Part shown: piece by piece, positions 33,463-52,454 of the stretch
How positions within the stretch are numbered: position 1 is the stretch's first letter
How the letters are laid out: the number at the start of each line of letters is the position of its first letter
From: Arcobacter nitrofigilis DSM 7299
Lineage (GTDB): Bacteria > Campylobacterota > Campylobacteria > Campylobacterales > Arcobacteraceae
Reading direction: 5' to 3'
Length of the DNA: 64,000 nucleotides
Assembly: GCF_000092245.1 (NCBI RefSeq)
Contig: NC_014166.1
Span: 1,798,001 to 1,862,000, forward strand
Program-made: the position numbers and the translations under genes
The notes under the pieces: generated by a model
Databases searched by the model: none
Told to the model about the DNA's origin: nothing
The model's input: only the letters and a program-made list of their open reading frames with translations

Positions 33463-36006
33463 TTAATTATTTTTACAGTTTTCTTCTCTTGTAGTATTAA
33501 GTGCTTCAAATACTATACTAATATTATTTTCTAATGATTCAGTTACTTCAAAGATTTCATCATTAGATGCACCTTTAGCATATAAGTCTACTGTTTTTTG
33601 TACAAGTTCATGGACATTTTTATGAGATATTTTTAAATTATCCCAATCTTTCGTTTGGCTAAAAGTAGTATTTTCATGTTCATCAATCCATTTTCCAAGA
33701 TTACATTCATGGTCTGTTTTAACTTTAAAATTATTACCTTTTCTACATTCAGAAAAATTAATATTTTTAAATACTAAGTGATCAGATTTCAATTTATTTA
33801 CATCAAAAATAAGATTTTCATCACAGATTCTTTTACTAGCATTTTTATCAAAACTAGTTCTATTAATAGCATTTTGTAATTGTGAAGCAAGATCTGATGT
33901 TACATTTGACATCTCATTTATAGATGTTGCTAAAGCTGCATTTTGTTGAGTTGCTTGATCTAAAGAGTTAACAGTATCACTTATTTGACTCATTGCTGAT
34001 TCTTGCTCTTTTGTTGCAGTTGCCACATCTTCAATAAGTTCTATTGTATAAGTTATACTTTCATTTAATTGATTATACCCTGTAATCATTTGATTTGAGA
34101 TATCTTTACTTTGACTTGCTTTTAAAGTTGCATCTTCAACTAAAGTTTTTATCTCACGTGCTGCTTCTGCACTTCTTGAAGCTAGATTTCTAACCTCTTG
34201 GGCAACTACTGCAAAGCCTTTTCCTGCCTCTCCTGCAGTTGCTGCTTCAACTGCTGCATTTAGACTTAAAATATTTGTTTGAAAAGCTATTTGGTCAATT
34301 ATAGAAATTGATTCATTAATTGCACTTACTTTAGAACTTAATTCTTCCATTGCAGCAGCTGTTTTATAAGCAAGTTGTTTTCCATTCTCATTTGATTCAC
34401 TTACATTTTTTGTATATTGAGACATTTTAGTTGCTGTTTCACTACTGCTTTGAATAGTTGAAGATATCTCTTGAATAGCAGCTGCTGTTTCTTCTAAAGA
34501 AGCTGCTTGTTCATTTGAAGAAGTACTAAGTTTACTTGATGCACTTGATAATTCAAAAGCACTTGATGTTAATTTATTATTTGCATTATCAATTAAACAC
34601 ATTACCTCATTGATTGTTGATTGAGTTACTTTTATTCCATCAAAAATAGAACTAAGAGTTCCTGTTAATTTTACATCTGGTATTTTTGAATCATAATTTG
34701 CATGTGAAAGGTCAATCAAAACATCAGAAACCATCAATAAATTAGTTTGAAATACACCAATCATTGAGTTTACTTCATCTACAAGTTTATTAACTGATGT
34801 TGAGTGAGCTTTTGTTAATACTCTCTCATTTAATAAACCTCTATTAACTTTTTCGATGATTAAATTAGTTTCATCGATTACTTTAATATCAAGTTTGTTA
34901 CCCCTATCTAAATCGTCTAAATAGTCATTAAAACTAGTTACAACACTTCCAATTTCATCATTTGATTTAACTTCTATTCTTGTTGTTTCATTTGTTGTAT
35001 GATTAACTAAACTATCAATAGAATCTTTTAAATCTTTTATTGGAGATAAAACTGTTCGTCTTAGAGTAAAATAACTTCCAATCATTGATAAAACTAAAGC
35101 TATCAATAATAAAGCTAAAGCTTGCCAAATAATTTCAGAAGCTCCATTTATTGATACATTAACTACATCATGATTTCTACCAAGTAAAGCTATTCCTAAA
35201 TTTTTTCCTTTGAAGTCCTTAATATAAGTAAACGTATAAAAATACTTTGTATCTTCAGAATAACCATTTTTAAGAAGTTTAGCAAAATCTATATTTTTTG
35301 CATCATTATAAAAATCTTCATTTAAAAACTTTTGAGAAACTATATAATTATCTAGTTTTTTTAGTTTAGAAGTATCAGCAACTGCTAATTTTGAGTCCAT
35401 AAGTAAGATAAAAGCATCCCCATTTTTATCAAAAGATTTTGCAACAGAATTAATTCCTTGCATAAATTCCAAGGAACCAACATGTTCATTATCTTTTGTA
35501 AAAATAGGAACAACTGATCTTATACTTAAACCAGCTTTCCCTACTTCTAGTGTATTTACAACTTTTTTATCTTTATTTACTTCTACAACACTAGCTCTAA
35601 AAGAAGATAAGTCATCTCCAAACTTATTTGGAACCCATGATCTTAAAAAAGACTTATTGTCTTTTGTATGAATGTGTACTTTTATATTTTTAAAAGGTGT
35701 TGATTCTTTCATTCTTTTTGATAGACTTGATAAGGCGTTTATGGCTAGTTCTCGATTATTATCAACAAGTGCTTGTTGGATCATAGAATCATTTGCTATT
35801 GATATTGCATTTGAAATACCAACTTCTAACTTTCCTTCAATTTTTAAGTCAGATGTTTTTCTTAGTTCAGTTATATTTTTATTTATAACATCATTTTTTA
35901 TATAATTTTTCTTTATATCTAAAATAAAGAAACTAACTACAAGCATGAAAATAGCAAGTAGTATAGTCATATATAAAAATTTCTTTGAAATTGTTAAATT
36001 ATTCAT
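33463..36006 (-). CDS. Methyl-accepting chemotaxis protein with Cache sensor and CZB zinc domain
   Basis: The 847-residue product has an N-terminal membrane helix (about 10-28) and a periplasmic double-Cache-like sensor (about 40-280) with [20 protein letters not shown] second helix (about 290-315), a HAMP region and a long signalling coiled coil follow, the latter with the tip [20 protein letters not shown]. The C-terminal CZB domain has DHLVFK, the CNLGKW motif and SHKNVHELV as zinc ligands. CZB-bearing receptors can sense zinc or hypochlorous acid inside the cell, so it may integrate an external ligand with internal zinc or oxidant state. Confidence 0.9.
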
Positions 36007-38444: not shown

Positions 38445-39182
38445 TTAATTCAAAATAATTATTATCAAAAAGAGTTCAGATAGCTCTAGTATGGTACCTA
38501 AGGCATCGCCATTTAAGAAGCCAACATTTTTCTTTATAAATAATGCAATCAAATAAGAGAAGATAAAAGCAAAAAATGTAAGAGTTATAGCACTAAATCC
38601 TATAAGTATAATATTTGCCAATGTAAAAACTATAATTGCACTTAAAAAAATATTTGTAGAAAGTGAGTCTTTAAGTTGATTTACAAATGAAGATTTAAAT
38701 TCAAAGTTTTTAATCACAAACAAAAGCATCAATCTACTTATGACTATAATTGATACGAACTCTAAAAGATAGCCATTTAAAAACAAATATACAATCCCAG
38801 CAATTTTTAAAGTAAAAAAAGCAAAAGCATATAAAACTCCCATAGCACCAATAGTTGGTTCTTTGATAACTTCATAGGCATCTTTTCCACTATGTTTTGC
38901 ATATATAGCATCTACCACATCAATTATAGCCTCTGTATGTATAAACCCATAAAGAATCATATAAGATACAGCACAAATAGTTGCCCCAAACCAAGATAAA
39001 TCAGCTAAAAGATGATATAAAACAAGAGTAATAAAACCAAGGATTAATCCAAGCAAAGGAAGAGAAAAAAGCATAAAAGATAAAATCTCTTTTTTTGATA
39101 AGTCATCATCTTCTTTAAACTTCACAGGAAGTATTGTAAAGTAGCTAAGAGCAAATTTAAAACCTAAGATAAAATTATTCAT
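38445..39182 (-). CDS. cobS: Adenosylcobinamide-GDP ribazoletransferase CobS
   Basis: CobS joins adenosylcobinamide-GDP to alpha-ribazole (phosphate) to give B12. The 245-residue membrane protein has about six helices. It shows FALSYFTILPVKF at the N-terminus and the acidic loop HTEAIIDVVDAIYAKHSGKDAYEVIKE split over about residues 82-108, where metal binds, and ends with a GFLNGDALGTILELSE segment. It overlaps the cobQ end by 8 bp and closes a seven-gene operon. Confidence 0.92.
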   Translation of the reverse strand: MNNFILGFKFALSYFTILPVKFKEDDDLSKKEILSFMLFSLPLLGLILGFITLVLYHLLADLSWFGATICAVSYMILYGFIHTEAIIDVVDAIYAKHSGKDAYEVIKEPTIGAMGVLYAFAFFTLKIAGIVYLFLNGYLLEFVSIIVISRLMLLFVIKNFEFKSSFVNQLKDSLSTNIFLSAIIVFTLANIILIGFSAITLTFFAFIFSYLIALFIKKNVGFLNGDALGTILELSELFLIIIILN

Positions 39183-40569
39183 TTATATTTTCCAATATTT
39201 TATTTACATCAAGTCTATTTCTCATATTTGAAATAAAACTATCAATTGTATCTTTTTTATATACTTTAAAATCAAACTCTTTATAATCACTATTTATAGC
39301 TTTAAATAGTTTTGTTCTGATATTATCATTATCAAAAATAGCATGGATAAAAGTACCTTTTATATTATCTGTTTCATATGATATTGGATATTTTGTCGAA
39401 ACTCCATGGTGTATTTCAAAACCTTCAATTTCGCAATCAAAGATTTTATAACTAGCTTTTTTAAGGATTTTCTCTTTTTCAAAGATTATCTCATCATCTA
39501 TAAAAGCAAAGCCTTCTTCTACACAAGCTTCACTATTTTCCAATGCATATTTATCTTCAAGAGAGTTAAACATCATCTCATAACCACCACAAAGTCCTAA
39601 AATAGTTTTTTTATACTCTTTTACTCTTTCAAATAGTCCATTTGATTTGAGCCATTGTAGGTCTTTTATCACAAGCTTTGAACCTGGTAGTATTATCATA
39701 TCAAACTTATCAAGAGAGATATTATTTTCTATAAACTCCAAGTTTATATTACTATGGGCAATCAAAGGTTCAAAGTCATTGTAATTGCTCATATAAGGAT
39801 ATGAAATAACCCCTACTCTTATAATACTATCTTTAGAATTTTGAGCATAATTTTTCAAACTTTGTGAATCTTCAAATCCAAGATTAAAAGCTACATAAGG
39901 AAGTACTCCAAGAACTGGTATTTTAAAATCATTTTCTATGATTCTAATCCCTTCATCAAATAAAGATAAATCCCCACGAAACTTATTTACAATCACACCT
40001 ATTACATTTTTTTGCAATTCTTTTGGAAGTAGATTATAAACCCCATAAATAGAAGCAAACACGCCACCCTTTTCTATATCTGCTACAAGTATGATTTTAG
40101 TATTGTATTTTGTAGCAATATAAATATTTGACAAGTCCTTATCCATAAGATTAAGCTCCACAGGACTTCCAGCCCCCTCACAAACAAGACAATCATACCT
40201 TTCATTTAGATAAGAAAAACATCTATCAACAGCAGGCTTTAAAAGGTCTAAATCTTTATAATAACTAAGCACATCCTTACTAGCTAACACTTGCCCCTCA
40301 ACTATTACAGAAGCACTGCTTCCACGACCTGATTTTAATAGGACAGGATTAAGATGATAAGAAGTAGGTACACCCAAAACCAGAGCTTGAAAATACTGAG
40401 CCACAGCAATCTCACTACCATCATCACAAACATAGGCATTGTTTGATACATTTTGAGCTTTAAAAGGAGCTACTTTTACTCCTAAGTCTTGTAAAATCTT
40501 AGCTATTACAAAAGTAATAGTTGACTTTCCTGCATCACTTGAAGTTCCAAAGATAGAGATGTTTTTCAC
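39175..40569 (-). CDS. cobQ: Cobyric acid synthase CobQ
   Basis: CobQ amidates four side chains of adenosylcobyrinic acid a,c-diamide using glutamine and ATP. The 464-residue product has an ATP-grasp-like BioD domain (GTSSDAGKSTITFVIAK at residue 8) and a class-I glutamine amidotransferase domain with the Cys in ILGLCGGYEMMF (about residue 327) and a late His in FEIHHGVSTK. cobU lies immediately upstream. Confidence 0.93.
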   Translation of the reverse strand: MKNISIFGTSSDAGKSTITFVIAKILQDLGVKVAPFKAQNVSNNAYVCDDGSEIAVAQYFQALVLGVPTSYHLNPVLLKSGRGSSASVIVEGQVLASKDVLSYYKDLDLLKPAVDRCFSYLNERYDCLVCEGAGSPVELNLMDKDLSNIYIATKYNTKIILVADIEKGGVFASIYGVYNLLPKELQKNVIGVIVNKFRGDLSLFDEGIRIIENDFKIPVLGVLPYVAFNLGFEDSQSLKNYAQNSKDSIIRVGVISYPYMSNYNDFEPLIAHSNINLEFIENNISLDKFDMIILPGSKLVIKDLQWLKSNGLFERVKEYKKTILGLCGGYEMMFNSLEDKYALENSEACVEEGFAFIDDEIIFEKEKILKKASYKIFDCEIEGFEIHHGVSTKYPISYETDNIKGTFIHAIFDNDNIRTKLFKAINSDYKEFDFKVYKKDTIDSFISNMRNRLDVNKILENINE

Positions 40570-41064
40570 TTATTTCAACCTTTGTGCAAGACCAAGTTTC
40601 ACTTCATAAACTTCATCACAGATACTTGCTAACTTTTGTCCGATGATTCCACTCATGTCCACATATTTACGACTTACTTTTTCAAAGGGTATAACTCCAC
40701 TACTTACGTCATTGAGTACAAAGACTATATTTGCATTTATTGATGCTAGTTTTTCTATTTCAGCCAAGAGCTCATCTTCACTTTTTTCAAGGGCATTTAA
40801 GAGCCACATGGAGATACAGTCTACCAAATAAGTGTTATCATCTTCGATGACCTTTGATAAATCAAATTTCTCTTCTATGGTTTCAAACTTATCTTTTCTT
40901 TGATTTTGGTGTTTTAAAACCCTATTTTGCATCTCTTTATCACCATAACTATTATCATAGGTTGCTATATAATATGGCTTTTTATTTTTTAAGAGTTCTA
41001 TTGTTTTTGTTTCTGCAAGGGAGCTTTTACCTGATTTTTGTCCGCCAAAATATAATACTTTCAT
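40570..41064 (-). CDS. cobU: Adenosylcobinamide kinase / adenosylcobinamide-phosphate guanylyltransferase CobU
   Basis: The 164-residue product carries the CobU P-loop YFGGQKSGKSSLAE and the conserved VDCISMWLLN and SSGVIPFEKVSRKYVDMSG segments. It phosphorylates and guanylylates adenosylcobinamide before CobS. It overlaps the marC stop by one base and abuts cobQ, so it is translationally coupled on both sides. Confidence 0.93.
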   Translation of the reverse strand: MKVLYFGGQKSGKSSLAETKTIELLKNKKPYYIATYDNSYGDKEMQNRVLKHQNQRKDKFETIEEKFDLSKVIEDDNTYLVDCISMWLLNALEKSEDELLAEIEKLASINANIVFVLNDVSSGVIPFEKVSRKYVDMSGIIGQKLASICDEVYEVKLGLAQRLK

Positions 41065-41663
41065 TATAGTCCTAAGAAGTTTTTGATACCAGTAAATACA
41101 ATTTGTGCGGCAAGTGCTGATAAAAATAGACCTGTAATTTTTGATATTACTAATAAACCTTGTTTACCAATCACTTTTTCAATAATACTTGAAGCATAAA
41201 GCATAAAACCTATAACTAAAACTGCACTTATCAAGGCTAAACTTCCCATAACCATTGAAGAAGTATCATTAAAAGTTGCACCCATTACAAGTAAGATACC
41301 AATAGTCCCAGGTCCTATTGTTACTGGAATTGCTAAGGGTACAACTGCTAGTTGAGAAATATCTTTATCGCCTACTTTCCCACTATCTTTATTACCTTTT
41401 ATTAAATCAACAGCAGATAAAAACAATAAGGCACCAGCACCTATTCTAAAAGCATCAAGAGTTATTCCAAAGACTGCAAATATATGCTTACCAAAAAAGA
41501 CTAAAACTAAACTCATAATAATCACTGAAATTGTAACTTTAACAGCTAAAGCTTTTCTCTCTTTTGCTGTTGCCTCATGGGTTACTGTTAAAAAAACTGA
41601 CAACACAAAAAACGGTGTCATAATAAAAAACATTTTAAGAAATGTTGCTATAAAAATATCCAT
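41064..41663 (-). CDS. MarC-family (UPF0056) integral membrane protein
   Basis: The 199-residue product has six membrane helices and the MarC signatures FFIMTPFFVLSVFLTVT and PLAIPVTIGPGTIGILLVMG. The function of the family is not established; the old antibiotic-resistance link is doubtful. Unusually it lies inside the cob operon, 3 bp after cobT and overlapping cobU by one base. It may move a pathway intermediate or nucleobase across the membrane. That is only an inference from position. Confidence 0.85.
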   Translation of the reverse strand: MDIFIATFLKMFFIMTPFFVLSVFLTVTHEATAKERKALAVKVTISVIIMSLVLVFFGKHIFAVFGITLDAFRIGAGALLFLSAVDLIKGNKDSGKVGDKDISQLAVVPLAIPVTIGPGTIGILLVMGATFNDTSSMVMGSLALISAVLVIGFMLYASSIIEKVIGKQGLLVISKITGLFLSALAAQIVFTGIKNFLGL

Positions 41664-41666
41664 ACC

Positions 41667-42725
41667 TTATCCTAAGAAACTTTCAACTTGTTTGGTTATA
41701 TCAGCTTTTGACAAACCATTTAAAAGCCCATACATAAGAGCTCCTCCTGCACCAACACCCTCTTTTGCTTCACCTTCATCATATAACTTTAAAGCAGGAT
41801 GAGTTGATAATGAAAAATCAAAATCAACATAAAAAGCATCAATCTTAAAATCAAGTAATTCTATAAGTGTCTTAATATCACTTTTATCATCTTCTTTTAT
41901 CCACTTTGTAGTACATAATGCTAAATTTGAAGTATCAAATTCTCCACCCATGGTTCTTAAAATTGAGTTTACGATTAGAAGAACTGAAGCCATCTGAGTT
42001 CCACCTGCTAGGACTACTTTTATTTTATTATTTAATCCTAAAATAAAACCAGCATTGAATATTTGCATATTGTCTGATACACGTCCAAGTTTTGCAAAGA
42101 TATCATCGTCACTTCTTACATGATATAGCGCATTTTTAACTGTTTCATCTCTTATTGTTGTTGGAGAGTTTTTAAAAGAACTAGAAAAAAACTCTTTACA
42201 ATCATAATCCAAAGCTTCACAAGTAGCTCTAGCTGTTGTAGTACCACTGGGAACACTTTCACCTAAAATTATATAATCATCTTGGCACTCATAAGTTTGA
42301 CCAAAAGCTAATCCCTTTTGAAAGATGTCAAGTGCATCTATTTTTGCATCAAGGGCGATTGATTTTGAGGGAGATATTCCAAAAGTATGTGTCTTGAAAT
42401 AATCAACTTTGGGAGAGACTTCAAGTCCTAAATCTAGAAGTTCTATATTTGAATATGGCTTTAAAAGGTGCACAGCTCTTGTAATAAGAGCAGGAGTTGG
42501 TACTCCACTTGGAGTTGTAGCTATTTCACCTAAACTTCGTAGTTCCCCTGTACATAAAAACTCACTATCAAGGGTGGGAGTTAAATGTATCTTTCCTGGG
42601 ATTCCAGCTTGTGTTAGACCAGCTATATTTACCGTTTGTGTATTGCTAAGGCTTAACATAAAAGTAGCCTTTTTGCCCCTTAAAAATTCTGCAAAATCAA
42701 TCTTACCTATAATATTTTTTACCAA
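41667..42725 (-). CDS. cobT: Nicotinate-nucleotide:dimethylbenzimidazole phosphoribosyltransferase-like protein (CobT, TIGR00303 type)
   Basis: The 352-residue product matches the archaeal/cyanobacterial-type CobT family rather than the enterobacterial one. It shows LSLSNTQTVNIAGLTQAGIPG, the ILGESVPSGTTTARATCEAL strand-loop and AGGTQMASVLLIV. It would activate the lower ligand as alpha-ribazole phosphate. BluB two genes upstream makes dimethylbenzimidazole the likely base. It lies 8 bp after the kinase gene. Confidence 0.85.
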   Translation of the reverse strand: MVKNIIGKIDFAEFLRGKKATFMLSLSNTQTVNIAGLTQAGIPGKIHLTPTLDSEFLCTGELRSLGEIATTPSGVPTPALITRAVHLLKPYSNIELLDLGLEVSPKVDYFKTHTFGISPSKSIALDAKIDALDIFQKGLAFGQTYECQDDYIILGESVPSGTTTARATCEALDYDCKEFFSSSFKNSPTTIRDETVKNALYHVRSDDDIFAKLGRVSDNMQIFNAGFILGLNNKIKVVLAGGTQMASVLLIVNSILRTMGGEFDTSNLALCTTKWIKEDDKSDIKTLIELLDFKIDAFYVDFDFSLSTHPALKLYDEGEAKEGVGAGGALMYGLLNGLSKADITKQVESFLG

Positions 42726-42733
42726 GTTCTTTC

Positions 42734-43516
42734 CTATATCAAATCTATAAATTTATTTTTGAAAATAATGTTATCATAATCTCTATTAGTCAAATGCCTT
42801 TTAACACAATAATAAAGTGAAGCATATCTTAAATAGATAATAAAATCATCTAATTTTATCTCTTTATCATAAGCCTTTAAAAGTATATTTATCTCTTCTT
42901 TATTGCTACACCAAGATAAAGCTACAACTGCCAAATCAAAAATAAAGTCACCCTCACAAGCATCACTAAAATCAAAGACACAAGTTAGTTTATCTCCACA
43001 AAAAGTTGCATTATCTAAAAAGAGATCTCCATGAATAATACCATCATTTTTAAGTTCTATTTTTAAACAATCAAACTCATCTTTAAAGGCTTTATTACAA
43101 GTTTTTTCTATCATTACTTTTAGTTGTGACTTACCAAAAGCTGATAAATTATCATGCTTTTTATTTTTTGTCATTTTATGAAAAGAGTTTAAAAACTGCC
43201 CTATTTGTTCTAAGTGGGTTGATTTTACAAACTCAACTACACTCTCACCCTTTGCTTTAGAAAAAACAAGACCCCTTTTTCCTTTTATAAAAATGTCATC
43301 TTTTATGACTTTAGGGACACAAAGTTTTTTTGTGTAGTTTAAAAGTTCAATCTCTGCATCAATATTAAAGAGATTTTCTTCTTCATATATCTTTAGAATA
43401 TAGTCATTATCCAAAATATAGACAGTATGACTTTCACCATTTTTTGTCTCTTGCAATGATTTTATATCAAAAAAAGGTTTTATATCTTCATAAAAAAGTT
43501 TAGTTTTTACTCCCAC
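42734..43516 (-). CDS. APH-fold small-molecule kinase, candidate L-threonine/serine kinase of B12 synthesis
   Basis: The 260-residue product (from the GTG at 43516) is an aminoglycoside-phosphotransferase-fold kinase with the Brenner motif IHGDLFLDNATF and the metal-binding VFDFSDACEGDFIFDLA. I prefer the GTG because it overlaps the bluB stop (TAGTG) and has AAGG seven bases before it; a frame-compatible ATG at 43558 would overlap bluB by 43 bp. The decarboxylase in this locus needs an O-phospho-amino acid, and no PduX- or BluE-like kinase is visible, so this enzyme may supply it. The homoserine kinase ThrB2 shares the fold. Confidence 0.75.
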   Translation of the reverse strand: MGVKTKLFYEDIKPFFDIKSLQETKNGESHTVYILDNDYILKIYEEENLFNIDAEIELLNYTKKLCVPKVIKDDIFIKGKRGLVFSKAKGESVVEFVKSTHLEQIGQFLNSFHKMTKNKKHDNLSAFGKSQLKVMIEKTCNKAFKDEFDCLKIELKNDGIIHGDLFLDNATFCGDKLTCVFDFSDACEGDFIFDLAVVALSWCSNKEEINILLKAYDKEIKLDDFIIYLRYASLYYCVKRHLTNRDYDNIIFKNKFIDLI

Positions 43517-44139
43517 TATATGACCTTGATATCTTTCATTGATTTTCTTTTTTCCCAATCTAGGGTTAAAAGCTCTGGTTCATCTAAAAACTCATCCACA
43601 TAACCAACTGTCAAATAAGCTATAAGTTTATGATTTTTTTCTATATTTAAAATCTTTTTTACTCTTTTTGGTTTTAAAATACTTACCCAACCAACACCAA
43701 TATTATGAGCCCTTGCCATCAACCAAAAGTTTTGGATAGCACAAACTACACTATACTCACCCATCTTTTTTTGGCTTGTTTGCCCTAAGACTCTTTTATC
43801 ACTTTTTTCATATAAAACTGCGATATTTAAGTAAGACTCTTTTATACCTTCAAGTTTTAGTTTACTATAGAGTTCTTTATCTTTAAAAATCTCTTTTGCT
43901 TTTTCATTTTCTTTTAGGAAGTCTTGATATATCTCATCTCTTTTTTTAGCATCTTTTACTATCACAAATTTCCAAGGTTGTGAGAAACCAACGGAGGGAG
44001 CATCGCAAGCAGCTTGAAGAAGTTTATCGAGGGTTTCATCATCTATTTTTTTATCTAAAAATCTATTTCCTCTCACATCTCTTCTAGCTTTTATAATCTC
44101 ATCTAAACATGCTATATCAGCAGATGTAAACTCTCTCAT
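43516..44139 (-). CDS. bluB: 5,6-Dimethylbenzimidazole synthase BluB
   Basis: BluB cleaves reduced FMN with oxygen to make the lower ligand of B12. The 207-residue product is a nitroreductase-fold enzyme with the BluB signatures RRDVRGNRFL near residue 19, APSVGFSQPWKFVIV near 46 and ARAHNIGVGWVSIL. It heads the minus-strand cob operon, and its stop overlaps the kinase start. Its presence implies aerobic or microaerobic synthesis of authentic cobalamin. Confidence 0.93.
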   Translation of the reverse strand: MREFTSADIACLDEIIKARRDVRGNRFLDKKIDDETLDKLLQAACDAPSVGFSQPWKFVIVKDAKKRDEIYQDFLKENEKAKEIFKDKELYSKLKLEGIKESYLNIAVLYEKSDKRVLGQTSQKKMGEYSVVCAIQNFWLMARAHNIGVGWVSILKPKRVKKILNIEKNHKLIAYLTVGYVDEFLDEPELLTLDWEKRKSMKDIKVI

Positions 44140-44205: not shown

Positions 44206-45240
44206 TTGAAATCAAATAATCAATTTAGTCATGGTGGTGATATTTTAGCTTTTAGCAAAAAAATAGGCTCAAAACCAAAAGAAATAATAGACCTATCTTC
44301 AAATATCAATTTTCTAAAACCAAAGATAAAAACAGACCTAAATAATTTAGATATTTCAAACTATCCAACATATGAAAAACTATATAAAATAATAGCAAAA
44401 AAATATAGTGTAAAAGCTGATGAAATAGAACTTTTCAATGGTGGAAGTAGCGCAATTTTTTCATTCTTTAGATATATCGATTTAAAGCACTGTACAATAT
44501 ATTCCCCTGCCTATTTAGAGTACAAAAAAGCAGCACAAACTTTTGGATTCAAAATTGATTTGATAAATAGATTTGAACAGGTAAACAAAAAAGTGAAAAA
44601 GAACTCTTTAGTTATCTTTGTAAATCCCTCAACTCCCGATGGAAAATATTATGATTTGGACAAACTATTTAACTCTTGGCTTGAAAAAAACTGTACTATT
44701 TTTGTAGATGAGAGTTTTTTAGACTTTACAAATAAAAAATCCATCATAAGTAAATTAAAAAGCTATGATAAGCTATATATTTTAAAATCCATGACAAAAA
44801 TATATAGTAGTGCAAGTATAAGAGTTGGTACACTTATATCAAATGCCAAAAATATCAAAAAAATAAAAGATAAAGAGCCTTTATGGAAGTTATCACATTT
44901 TGACTCTATTTATTTGCAAAATGCCATTAAAAACAGAGACTTTATAAGTGAAACTATCAAAATCACAAAAGAAAATAAAAAATATACTATCAAACACTTA
45001 CAAAAGTTTGATTTCATAAAAAAGATATATAAAAGCCAAGCAAATTATTTATTGTTAGAGCTTCAAGACTGCAATGCTCAAACCCTACAAGATAAACTAA
45101 TTTCTTACAAAATCATGATAAGAGATTGTTCTAACTTTGATTTTCTAAATAACTCTTTTGTAAGAGTTGCAATAAAAGATAAAAAATCTATGCAAAAGTT
45201 TATAAAAGCTTTGAAAAATGAGTTTAAATGCATTTTATAA
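44206..45240 (+). CDS. cobD: L-threonine-O-3-phosphate decarboxylase-type aminotransferase (CobD/CobC)
   Basis: The 344-residue fold-type-I PLP enzyme has HGGDILAFSKKIG at its start, NPSTPDGKYYD, FVDESFLDF and the PLP lysine in LKSMTKIYSSASIRVG (about residue 198). It makes (R)-1-amino-2-propanol phosphate, or ethanolamine phosphate if the substrate is phosphoserine, for the nucleotide loop. It starts at a TTG after AAGAGA, with no ATG nearby. It overlaps cbiB by 13 bp and diverges from bluB across 66 bp. Confidence 0.88.
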   Translation: MKSNNQFSHGGDILAFSKKIGSKPKEIIDLSSNINFLKPKIKTDLNNLDISNYPTYEKLYKIIAKKYSVKADEIELFNGGSSAIFSFFRYIDLKHCTIYSPAYLEYKKAAQTFGFKIDLINRFEQVNKKVKKNSLVIFVNPSTPDGKYYDLDKLFNSWLEKNCTIFVDESFLDFTNKKSIISKLKSYDKLYILKSMTKIYSSASIRVGTLISNAKNIKKIKDKEPLWKLSHFDSIYLQNAIKNRDFISETIKITKENKKYTIKHLQKFDFIKKIYKSQANYLLLELQDCNAQTLQDKLISYKIMIRDCSNFDFLNNSFVRVAIKDKKSMQKFIKALKNEFKCIL

Positions 45241-46112
45241 CCGTTTTAGTAGCTTATTTTTTTGATTATATTTTTGCTGAATTGGAAAAAATAAAGTTCT
45301 TCAAACATCCAATTATTTTTATGGGTAATTATATAAAATGGTTTGAAAAAAACTTTTATAAAGACTCTATAACAAGAGGTGTTACCTTAACACTTTCCTT
45401 GCTTAGTATAGTTTTTATTATCACATATTTTCTAAGTCTTTTTGATAATATTTTAGTCCAGGGATTTTTATGCTCTTTTGCAATCTCATCTAAAATGCTT
45501 TATGATAGTGTAAAAGAAGTTGTCCACTCAACTGACCCTAGACACGCTATTTCTATGTTAGTCAGTAGAGATACAAAGGATATGAGTGAAAGTGATATAA
45601 ATAAAGCTGCGGTTGAAACTTATGCTGAAAACTTAAGTGATGGAGTAATAGCTCCTATGTTTTATATCTTGCTTTTTGGACTTATTGGGGGCTTTATATA
45701 TAAGGCTATAAATACCCTTGATTCTATGGTTGGTTATAAAAATGAAAGATATGAAAATTTTGGCAAGTTTTCTGCAAAACTTGATGATGTAGTAAATTAT
45801 ATACCCTCACGAATAACAGCTATTTTGATTGCTTTATTTTTCAACTCTTTTAATGCTTTGAAAAACTTTTATTCATATGGGAAACTCCATGATAGTCCAA
45901 ATGCTGGGCACCCTATTTCTGCTATGGCTTTAGCTTTAGGAATAAAACTTGGAGGTCCAACTTCTTATTTTGGAAAAGTAAAAGATAAAGCTTATTTTGG
46001 TGAAGGAAGAGAAGAGATATTAAAAGAAGATGTTCTAAATGCACTTAATTTTAAATCAAAATTTGATTCACTACTTTTACTTATGACAATAATCTTTTTT
46101 TTATTAGTTTAG
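45228..46112 (+). CDS. cbiB: Adenosylcobinamide-phosphate synthase CbiB
   Basis: CbiB attaches the aminopropanol phosphate to adenosylcobyric acid. The 294-residue membrane protein has the family segments KFFKHPIIFMGNYIKWFEK, VSRDTKDMSESDINKAAVET, ENLSDGVIAPMFY and SPNAGHPISAMALALGIKLGG. It is translated in the overlap with the decarboxylase gene. Its 3' end overlaps the convergent cbiA gene by 32 bp. Confidence 0.93.
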   Translation: MHFITVLVAYFFDYIFAELEKIKFFKHPIIFMGNYIKWFEKNFYKDSITRGVTLTLSLLSIVFIITYFLSLFDNILVQGFLCSFAISSKMLYDSVKEVVHSTDPRHAISMLVSRDTKDMSESDINKAAVETYAENLSDGVIAPMFYILLFGLIGGFIYKAINTLDSMVGYKNERYENFGKFSAKLDDVVNYIPSRITAILIALFFNSFNALKNFYSYGKLHDSPNAGHPISAMALALGIKLGGPTSYFGKVKDKAYFGEGREEILKEDVLNALNFKSKFDSLLLLMTIIFFLLV

Positions 46113-47340
46113 TATTTCCTCTAAACATACAGTGTAAATATGTTCCAAAAACTTTATTCTTTTCCCATGAACCATATTTCCCAATAAGCGCTTTTGATTT
46201 AGACAATCTATCAAAACCACTATTTTCATCAAGAGGTTTTGTATAGTGAAAAGCATGACCCTTTACACCATCTTCATTGAAATAGTATCCCATCCTTTGA
46301 AATCTTTTCTCTTTTGTAAAACTAACATCTAAAATAGAGCTCATAAGTTTATCATCAACAGCAATTCCCAAATATAAAAGTCCAGCACACTCAGCATATA
46401 TAGGCTTTTCTTGTGCATGTTTTATAAGTGTTGATCTAAAATTATGTGAATTTTTAACTCTTTCATATGCACTATCTGTTTCAACATATCCTCCACAAAT
46501 ATAGACTATATCACTATCTTCAGGAATAATTTCATCTTTTGTCGAATCCACAATAATTACTTCTCTAAAACACTCTTTTAGAAAAACAAGATTATCATGA
46601 TATAAAAATGAAAAATTTTTATCATGTACAAGGGCTAATTTTCTATTTTGTTTAGGTATTTTTTCAAAGGGATAGTTTATTTTAATTTTTTTAGATATTT
46701 TAGCTATTTTATCAAGATTTTTCATATCAATATGTTCTAAAACATCTTGGCTTATTTTTTCTATCTTTCCTAAATCTTTTAAATCAAGTCCTAAATGTGT
46801 CTCATCTAAGGATTCCAAACCTTTTTTTATCCAACCTAAAACAACAATATCTTTAAAGTCTTTTTCTATTATCTTTTTTATTAGTTCATAGTGGGATTGT
46901 GAAGAGATTTTATTTAAAATTACAGCTTTTATTGTATTGTGTTTTTTATAGGTTTTTAATCCTTGTAAAAGGGCACTTACGGTTATATAACTTCCACTTC
47001 CATCAAGTAAGATAACTGTAGGGATTTTTAAAAGTCTTGAGATATCATAGGCACTACTTTTTTTATCATGTCCATCATAAAAACCCATAACACCTTCACA
47101 AATAGAGATCTTTTTGTCACTATATTTTTCAAAAATCCATTTTATTTCATCTTTGCTCATCATATATCTATCAAGATTTATACTAGGGGTTTGGCAAACT
47201 ATTTTATGAAATTGAGGATCTATAAAATCAGGTCCCATCTTAAAAGGTCGAACTGATTCTTTGAAGTGATATAATAAAGCTGTCGTTAAGACTGTCTTGC
47301 CTTGGTTTGAAGCACTTGCACTGATACATAAAGCTTTCAT
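46081..47340 (-). CDS. cbiA: Cobyrinate a,c-diamide synthase CbiA
   Basis: CbiA amidates the a and c acetate side chains of cobyrinate. The 419-residue product has the BioD-type P-loop SASNQGKTVLTTALL, the segment EGVMGFYDG, and a glutamine amidotransferase domain with Cys in YAECAGLLYLG (about residue 318). It ends the btu operon, 1 bp after btuC. Earlier corrin-ring genes are not in this window. Confidence 0.92.
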   Translation of the reverse strand: MKALCISASASNQGKTVLTTALLYHFKESVRPFKMGPDFIDPQFHKIVCQTPSINLDRYMMSKDEIKWIFEKYSDKKISICEGVMGFYDGHDKKSSAYDISRLLKIPTVILLDGSGSYITVSALLQGLKTYKKHNTIKAVILNKISSQSHYELIKKIIEKDFKDIVVLGWIKKGLESLDETHLGLDLKDLGKIEKISQDVLEHIDMKNLDKIAKISKKIKINYPFEKIPKQNRKLALVHDKNFSFLYHDNLVFLKECFREVIIVDSTKDEIIPEDSDIVYICGGYVETDSAYERVKNSHNFRSTLIKHAQEKPIYAECAGLLYLGIAVDDKLMSSILDVSFTKEKRFQRMGYYFNEDGVKGHAFHYTKPLDENSGFDRLSKSKALIGKYGSWEKNKVFGTYLHCMFRGNTKLIKKRLLS

Positions 47341-52034: not shown

Positions 52035-52454
52035 TTGACTTATAATGATTGGTTTGAAAAACATGCCACAAGACATCAAAATATCATGAAAAAAATAAAA
52101 GATTTAAGTGATGAAGAAGTTATAAAATATTTTAGATTTGATAATATGGTTCAAAAAGAGCCTGATTTTTGTCCACTTTATAAAGATAATAAAAAATGTC
52201 ATGATTATGAAGAGTTAAATTGTTACTTATGCGCCTGTCCAAACTTTAGATTCGATGATAATGGGTTTAAAAAAGTTGAAGATAAAACATTATATTCATA
52301 CTGTAATATAGATAGTAAAGATGGTGCTCAATATAAAGGTGATGATTATATTCATCAGAACTGTGCAGGATGTCTTGTTCCCCATAAGGAACCTTATATT
52401 AAAAAACATTTTTCAAGAAATTGGAAAGAGATTATGAAAGATGTACGACCATAA
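52035..52454 (+). CDS. Cysteine-rich small-domain protein, probable metal binder
   Basis: The 139-residue product starts at a TTG four bases after AAAGGAGA. It has eight Cys in an ordered pattern, FCPLY, KKCHDYEELNCYLCACPNF, YCNI and NCAGCLVPH, suggesting zinc or iron-sulfur binding. It resembles the Cys-rich small domain (PF04071-like) that is often found beside or fused to corrinoid biosynthesis proteins; I make this match from memory of the pattern. Position next to the btu/cob island supports a corrinoid link. Confidence 0.65.
   Translation: MTYNDWFEKHATRHQNIMKKIKDLSDEEVIKYFRFDNMVQKEPDFCPLYKDNKKCHDYEELNCYLCACPNFRFDDNGFKKVEDKTLYSYCNIDSKDGAQYKGDDYIHQNCAGCLVPHKEPYIKKHFSRNWKEIMKDVRP

Follow-up and report, generated by a model that had tools for sequence, protein, structure and literature searches.

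A candidate L-threonine kinase of the APH fold among the cobalamin genes of Arcobacter nitrofigilis

Which enzyme makes the L-threonine O-3-phosphate that the aminopropanol arm of vitamin B12 would consume in Arcobacter nitrofigilis? In Salmonella, the L-threonine kinase is PduX (EC 2.7.1.177), a protein of the GHMP fold. Most cobamide producers that have been verified by experiment, however, carry no pduX (PMC6461909); a replacement kinase is thus to be expected, and the threonine kinase forms a standing hole in the annotation of the B12 pathway. In haloarchaea, too, this step has been counted among the gaps of the pathway (PMC8305020). We analysed a stretch of 64,000 nucleotides of the A. 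nitrofigilis DSM 7299 genome (hereafter the window), in which a reading of the sequence alone had proposed that a kinase gene between bluB and cobT fills this gap.

A kinase gene between bluB and cobT

The cob genes form a string on the minus strand, in the order bluB-kinase-cobT-marC-cobU-cobQ-cobS; the opposite strand carries cbiB and the gene for a CobD-like decarboxylase:

38445..39182, minus strand: cobS (profile match)
39175..40569, minus strand: cobQ, cobyric acid synthase (profile match)
40570..41064, minus strand: cobU (Pfam profile match)
41064-41663, minus strand: marC, MarC-family membrane protein, inside the cob string
41667..42725, minus strand: cobT, of the archaeal/NaMN type and not the common bacterial type (PRK04447, 382 bits, cut-off 306)
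42734..43516, minus strand: APH-fold kinase, proposed L-threonine kinase (260 amino acids plus stop, GTG start)
43010..43033, minus strand: kinase catalytic-loop codons HGDLFLDN, residues 162-169 (alignment of 25 homologues and comparison with ThrB2)
43516..44139, minus strand: bluB, 5,6-dimethylbenzimidazole synthase (TIGR02476, 211 bits, cut-off 150)
44206..45240, plus strand: CobD-like L-threonine-phosphate decarboxylase (best family TIGR01140), divergent from bluB
45228..46112, plus strand: cbiB, adenosylcobinamide-phosphate synthase, which would use aminopropanol phosphate (profile match)
46081..47340, minus strand: cobB/cbiA, cobyrinate a,c-diamide synthase (profile match)

The decarboxylase is named by its best match and its context, because it scores 213 bits on TIGR01140, below the model cut-off of 290. 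A MarC-family gene is also found in the cob clusters of six other genomes (L006, G202, G290, G255, G240 and G206), and we know of no B12 role for this family. Elsewhere in the window, a Cys-rich protein of about 139 amino acids (52035-52454, plus strand) is conserved in 23 of 24 genomes tested, often within cob clusters where it adjoins cbiB or the kinase; its likeness to PF04071 is weak and non-significant (E 0.43). No cobalamin riboswitch was detected near the cob/btu genes between positions 34000 and 56000 at Rfam gathering thresholds.

The intact kinase frame read earlier between bluB and cobT, with overlapping stop and start, is seen exactly at 42734..43516. In the open reading frames of the window, its GTG start (43516-43514) has one base in common with the TAG stop of bluB (43518-43516), and 8 bases separate the kinase stop from cobT, which follows it. 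The N terminus thus obtained, MGVKT, supports this start since most homologues in the 25-sequence alignment begin with MG(V/I)KT. Comparison with an 81%-identical Arcobacter homologue (L006) gave a dN of 0.10 and a dS of 0.70; the gene evolves under purifying selection.

Fold, catalytic residues and nearest relatives

Assignment to the aminoglycoside/homoserine-kinase fold was borne out by a match to the Pfam APH family above its cut-off (PF01636; 65.9 bits, E 6e-18, cut-off 23.2) and by HxDxxxxN and D-F motifs. In the alignment of 25 homologues, which extends across nearly the full length of the protein, Lys42, the loop H162-x-D164-x-F-x-D168-N169 and D182 are invariant in 25 of 25 sequences. 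By analogy with the APH fold, D164 is the putative base, and N169 and the downstream D182 are putative metal ligands. An AlphaFold2 model, computed from only two sequences, reached a pLDDT of 38, too low for the model to be of use.

When the family profile was compared with solved structures, the top match was the homoserine kinase 2ppq (E 4e-23), with aminoglycoside kinases ranking far below, and NCBIfam homoserine-kinase models match all 25 family members. No choline-kinase match was obtained in Pfam, structure-profile and NCBIfam comparisons. The protein was also considered as an aminoglycoside resistance kinase, APH(3'), and this was rejected (32 bits against a cut-off of 205). With ThrB2, an APH-type homoserine kinase, the window kinase has in common the fold, an M-x-V-x-T start, the catalytic loop and its residues, and an invariant arginine near the C terminus (Arg240). 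It differs from ThrB2 in its linkage to cob genes and in the residues Lys42, Phe108, Gly189 and Tyr236, which are conserved in the kinase family. It also falls far under the family cut-offs for APH-type homoserine kinases (53 bits against 256 for TIGR00938, 68 against 271 for PRK05231), and in a tree with six such enzymes the kinase family forms a separate clade (support 100/98). Homoserine is an isomer of threonine, with only the hydroxyl placed differently, and an APH-type homoserine kinase would be the most likely origin of the family.

A scan of a collection of genome contigs for relatives of the kinase returned only a close Arcobacter relative. A plasmid collection gave only remote homoserine-kinase-like matches, none of those examined lying in a recognisable cob cluster.

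Co-occurrence and other sources of threonine phosphate

Four genes were counted over the same 298 Campylobacterota genomes, among which the kinase has 26 carriers, the window-type decarboxylase 30, cbiB 33 and cbiD 17. The kinase is accompanied by the decarboxylase in 25 of its 26 genomes (Jaccard 0.81; Fisher 2e-30, genome-level p-values being inflated by the relatedness of the genomes), by cbiB in 24 (Jaccard 0.69) and by cbiD in 12 (Jaccard 0.39). Counted by genus, kinase and cbiB are both present in 12, the kinase only in 2, cbiB only in 3 and neither in 41 (4e-8). Pfam searches found no CbiD in 14 kinase-bearing genomes (L037, L039, L041, L043-L045 and others), most of which have CbiB and many BluB. 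A role in corrin-ring synthesis was rejected on the presence of the kinase in these 14 genomes and its absence from four PCE-type genomes that have CbiD.

If the kinase acted on free (R)-1-amino-2-propanol (or on ethanolamine), so that aminopropanol phosphate arose directly and CobD was bypassed, it would likewise be tied to cbiB and to B12 clusters, and choline and ethanolamine kinases of the APH fold exist. Such a bypass makes the decarboxylase unnecessary, yet the decarboxylase is tracked at least as well as cbiB, and the affinity of the window kinase is instead to amino-acid (homoserine) kinases, with the choline-kinase comparisons giving no match. We therefore consider this activity quite unlikely.

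Consistent with the earlier remark that no PduX is visible, a genome-wide check found only IspE, ThrB and HddA among GHMP kinases; thus, the genome holds no PduX-like GHMP kinase and already possesses a homoserine kinase. In 12 genomes tested, each GHMP match over cut-off was likewise best assigned to IspE, ThrB or HddA. A second clear APH gene in the genome (L010:5288-6052, minus strand) adjoins a pnuC-like transporter gene and looks thiamine-kinase-like; it was rejected as a cob kinase. These results bear on whether the window kinase could serve threonine synthesis as a second homoserine kinase, placed in the cob operon by chance. APH-type homoserine kinases are indeed its best named relatives, but its score (68 bits against 271), its own clade, the GHMP ThrB already present and the cob linkage across the phylum make this very unlikely.

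Five genomes bear the decarboxylase without the kinase. Three of them have cob clusters (G202, G290 and G009), with decarboxylase, cbiB, cobQ and cobT present and kinase, PduX and CbiD absent; because CbiD is lacking, they probably only salvage late intermediates. Even then their decarboxylase would have to be supplied with a substrate, which counts against a threonine kinase. G209 has CbiD, CbiB and the decarboxylase and no kinase orthologue, in a draft of 170 contigs where the decarboxylase lies close to the end of one; an APH match in this genome was examined, including in a tree, and rejected as an orthologue. A weaker decarboxylase-like match (36%) is found in G044, which has no cbiB. In G233 the kinase homologue lies outside any cob cluster, which, like the case of G209, speaks against a threonine kinase. 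G265 has cbiB and no window-type decarboxylase.

The four PCE-type genomes, which their gene content suggests to be Sulfurospirillum-like, lack the kinase. Their cob cluster is a separate one and encodes a PF04071 protein and a divergent CobD that shares just 22% identity with that of the window. Phosphoserine is a normal intermediate of serine biosynthesis; if the divergent CobD uses it, no kinase is needed, which fits threonine as the substrate of the window kinase. Sulfurospirillum multivorans has a matching divergent CobD (SMUL_1544), to which a probable role in supplying ethanolamine phosphate for norpseudo-B12 has been ascribed (PMC4585668).

Could threonine phosphate instead come from elsewhere, from a bifunctional CobD of the Methanosarcina kind or a side activity of ThrB, with the kinase serving another role in the pathway? 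This would allow for G202, G290 and G009, which either get by without the kinase or are decayed. Against it, the genome of the window contains no match to the PF04071 Cys-rich domain at E 1e-5, and its best score on the CbiU family TIGR02535 is 25.9 bits, over a short stretch only, against a cut-off of 446. Moreover, the B12 pathway is not known to lack a kinase at any other step. We regard such a source as highly improbable.

Gene order, proposed reaction and significance

In the lineage of the window the kinase lies between bluB and cobT and does not adjoin the decarboxylase, which counts against a threonine kinase. The same position is found in L006, where the gene order is as in the window, and in G291, G264, G133 and G216. 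Elsewhere the order has changed: it is bluB-kinase-cobD-cbiB in G116 and cbiB-kinase-cobD-cobS in G224, kinase and cobD are adjacent in G128, G185, G286 and G010, kinase and cbiB are adjacent in G015, and in genomes of one genus the kinase adjoins the corrin-ring cluster. That the kinase stays with cob genes while their order shifts is strong evidence that it shares their function. A kinase of alpha-ribazole or another lower ligand, analogous to CblS, would suit the bluB and cobT flanks of the window and of those five genomes, but it is hardly credible, since CobT makes alpha-ribazole phosphate directly, leaving such a kinase unneeded in the de novo pathway, and in G116, G185, G286, G010 and G128 the kinase adjoins the decarboxylase, away from cobT.

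Taken as a whole, the evidence makes us reasonably confident that the product of the gene is an APH-fold L-threonine kinase that uses ATP, and its most likely ancestor is a homoserine kinase of the APH type. The enzyme would convert ATP and L-threonine to L-threonine O-3-phosphate, from which the CobD-like enzyme at 44206 would produce (R)-1-amino-2-propanol O-2-phosphate; CbiB (45228) would then attach this aminopropanol phosphate to adenosylcobyric acid, giving adenosylcobinamide phosphate. With such a descent, it would replace the GHMP kinase PduX by an unrelated protein. Where the sequence-only reading had left the choice between threonine and serine, threonine is favoured by the co-occurrence with the decarboxylase in 25 of 26 genomes, by adjacency in rearranged clusters and by the lack of PduX. 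Serine is disfavoured, being less likely because phosphoserine is already made and because the Sulfurospirillum-like genomes with a divergent CobD do without the kinase.

The reaction and the place in the pathway proposed here are those of PduX, which has a GHMP fold; Pfam gave no GHMP match for the window kinase. The CobD of Methanosarcina mazei, a bifunctional L-threonine kinase/decarboxylase with a fused, Cys-rich C-terminal domain, fills the same gap as one protein, whereas here the APH kinase is separate. BluE of Rhodobacterales, compared by description only, is a known L-threonine kinase with the reaction proposed here; it has been described as non-orthologous to PduX (PMC8123684), and BluE and PduX have also been called homologues (PMC6249242). 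In Dehalobacter, a relative of homoserine kinases encoded in a corrinoid operon, CbiU (Dehre_1608), has been proposed as an L-threonine kinase that replaces PduX (PMC4285132), but it belongs to the phosphoglycerate-mutase-like family TIGR02535 and not to the APH fold. The literature searched, outside which most subscription journals fall, yielded no description of a threonine kinase with the APH fold.

It seems likely that most of those Campylobacterota that build the aminopropanol arm themselves rely on a further, independently evolved L-threonine kinase of B12 synthesis, derived from homoserine kinases of the APH type. If so, one and the same step would have drawn on relatives of three unrelated homoserine-kinase folds (GHMP in PduX, phosphoglycerate-mutase-like in the proposed case of CbiU, and APH), which would make it a clean example of parallel recruitment. 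The kinase family would close the threonine-kinase hole for much of one phylum, and genome surveys could then call complete B12 pathways correctly.
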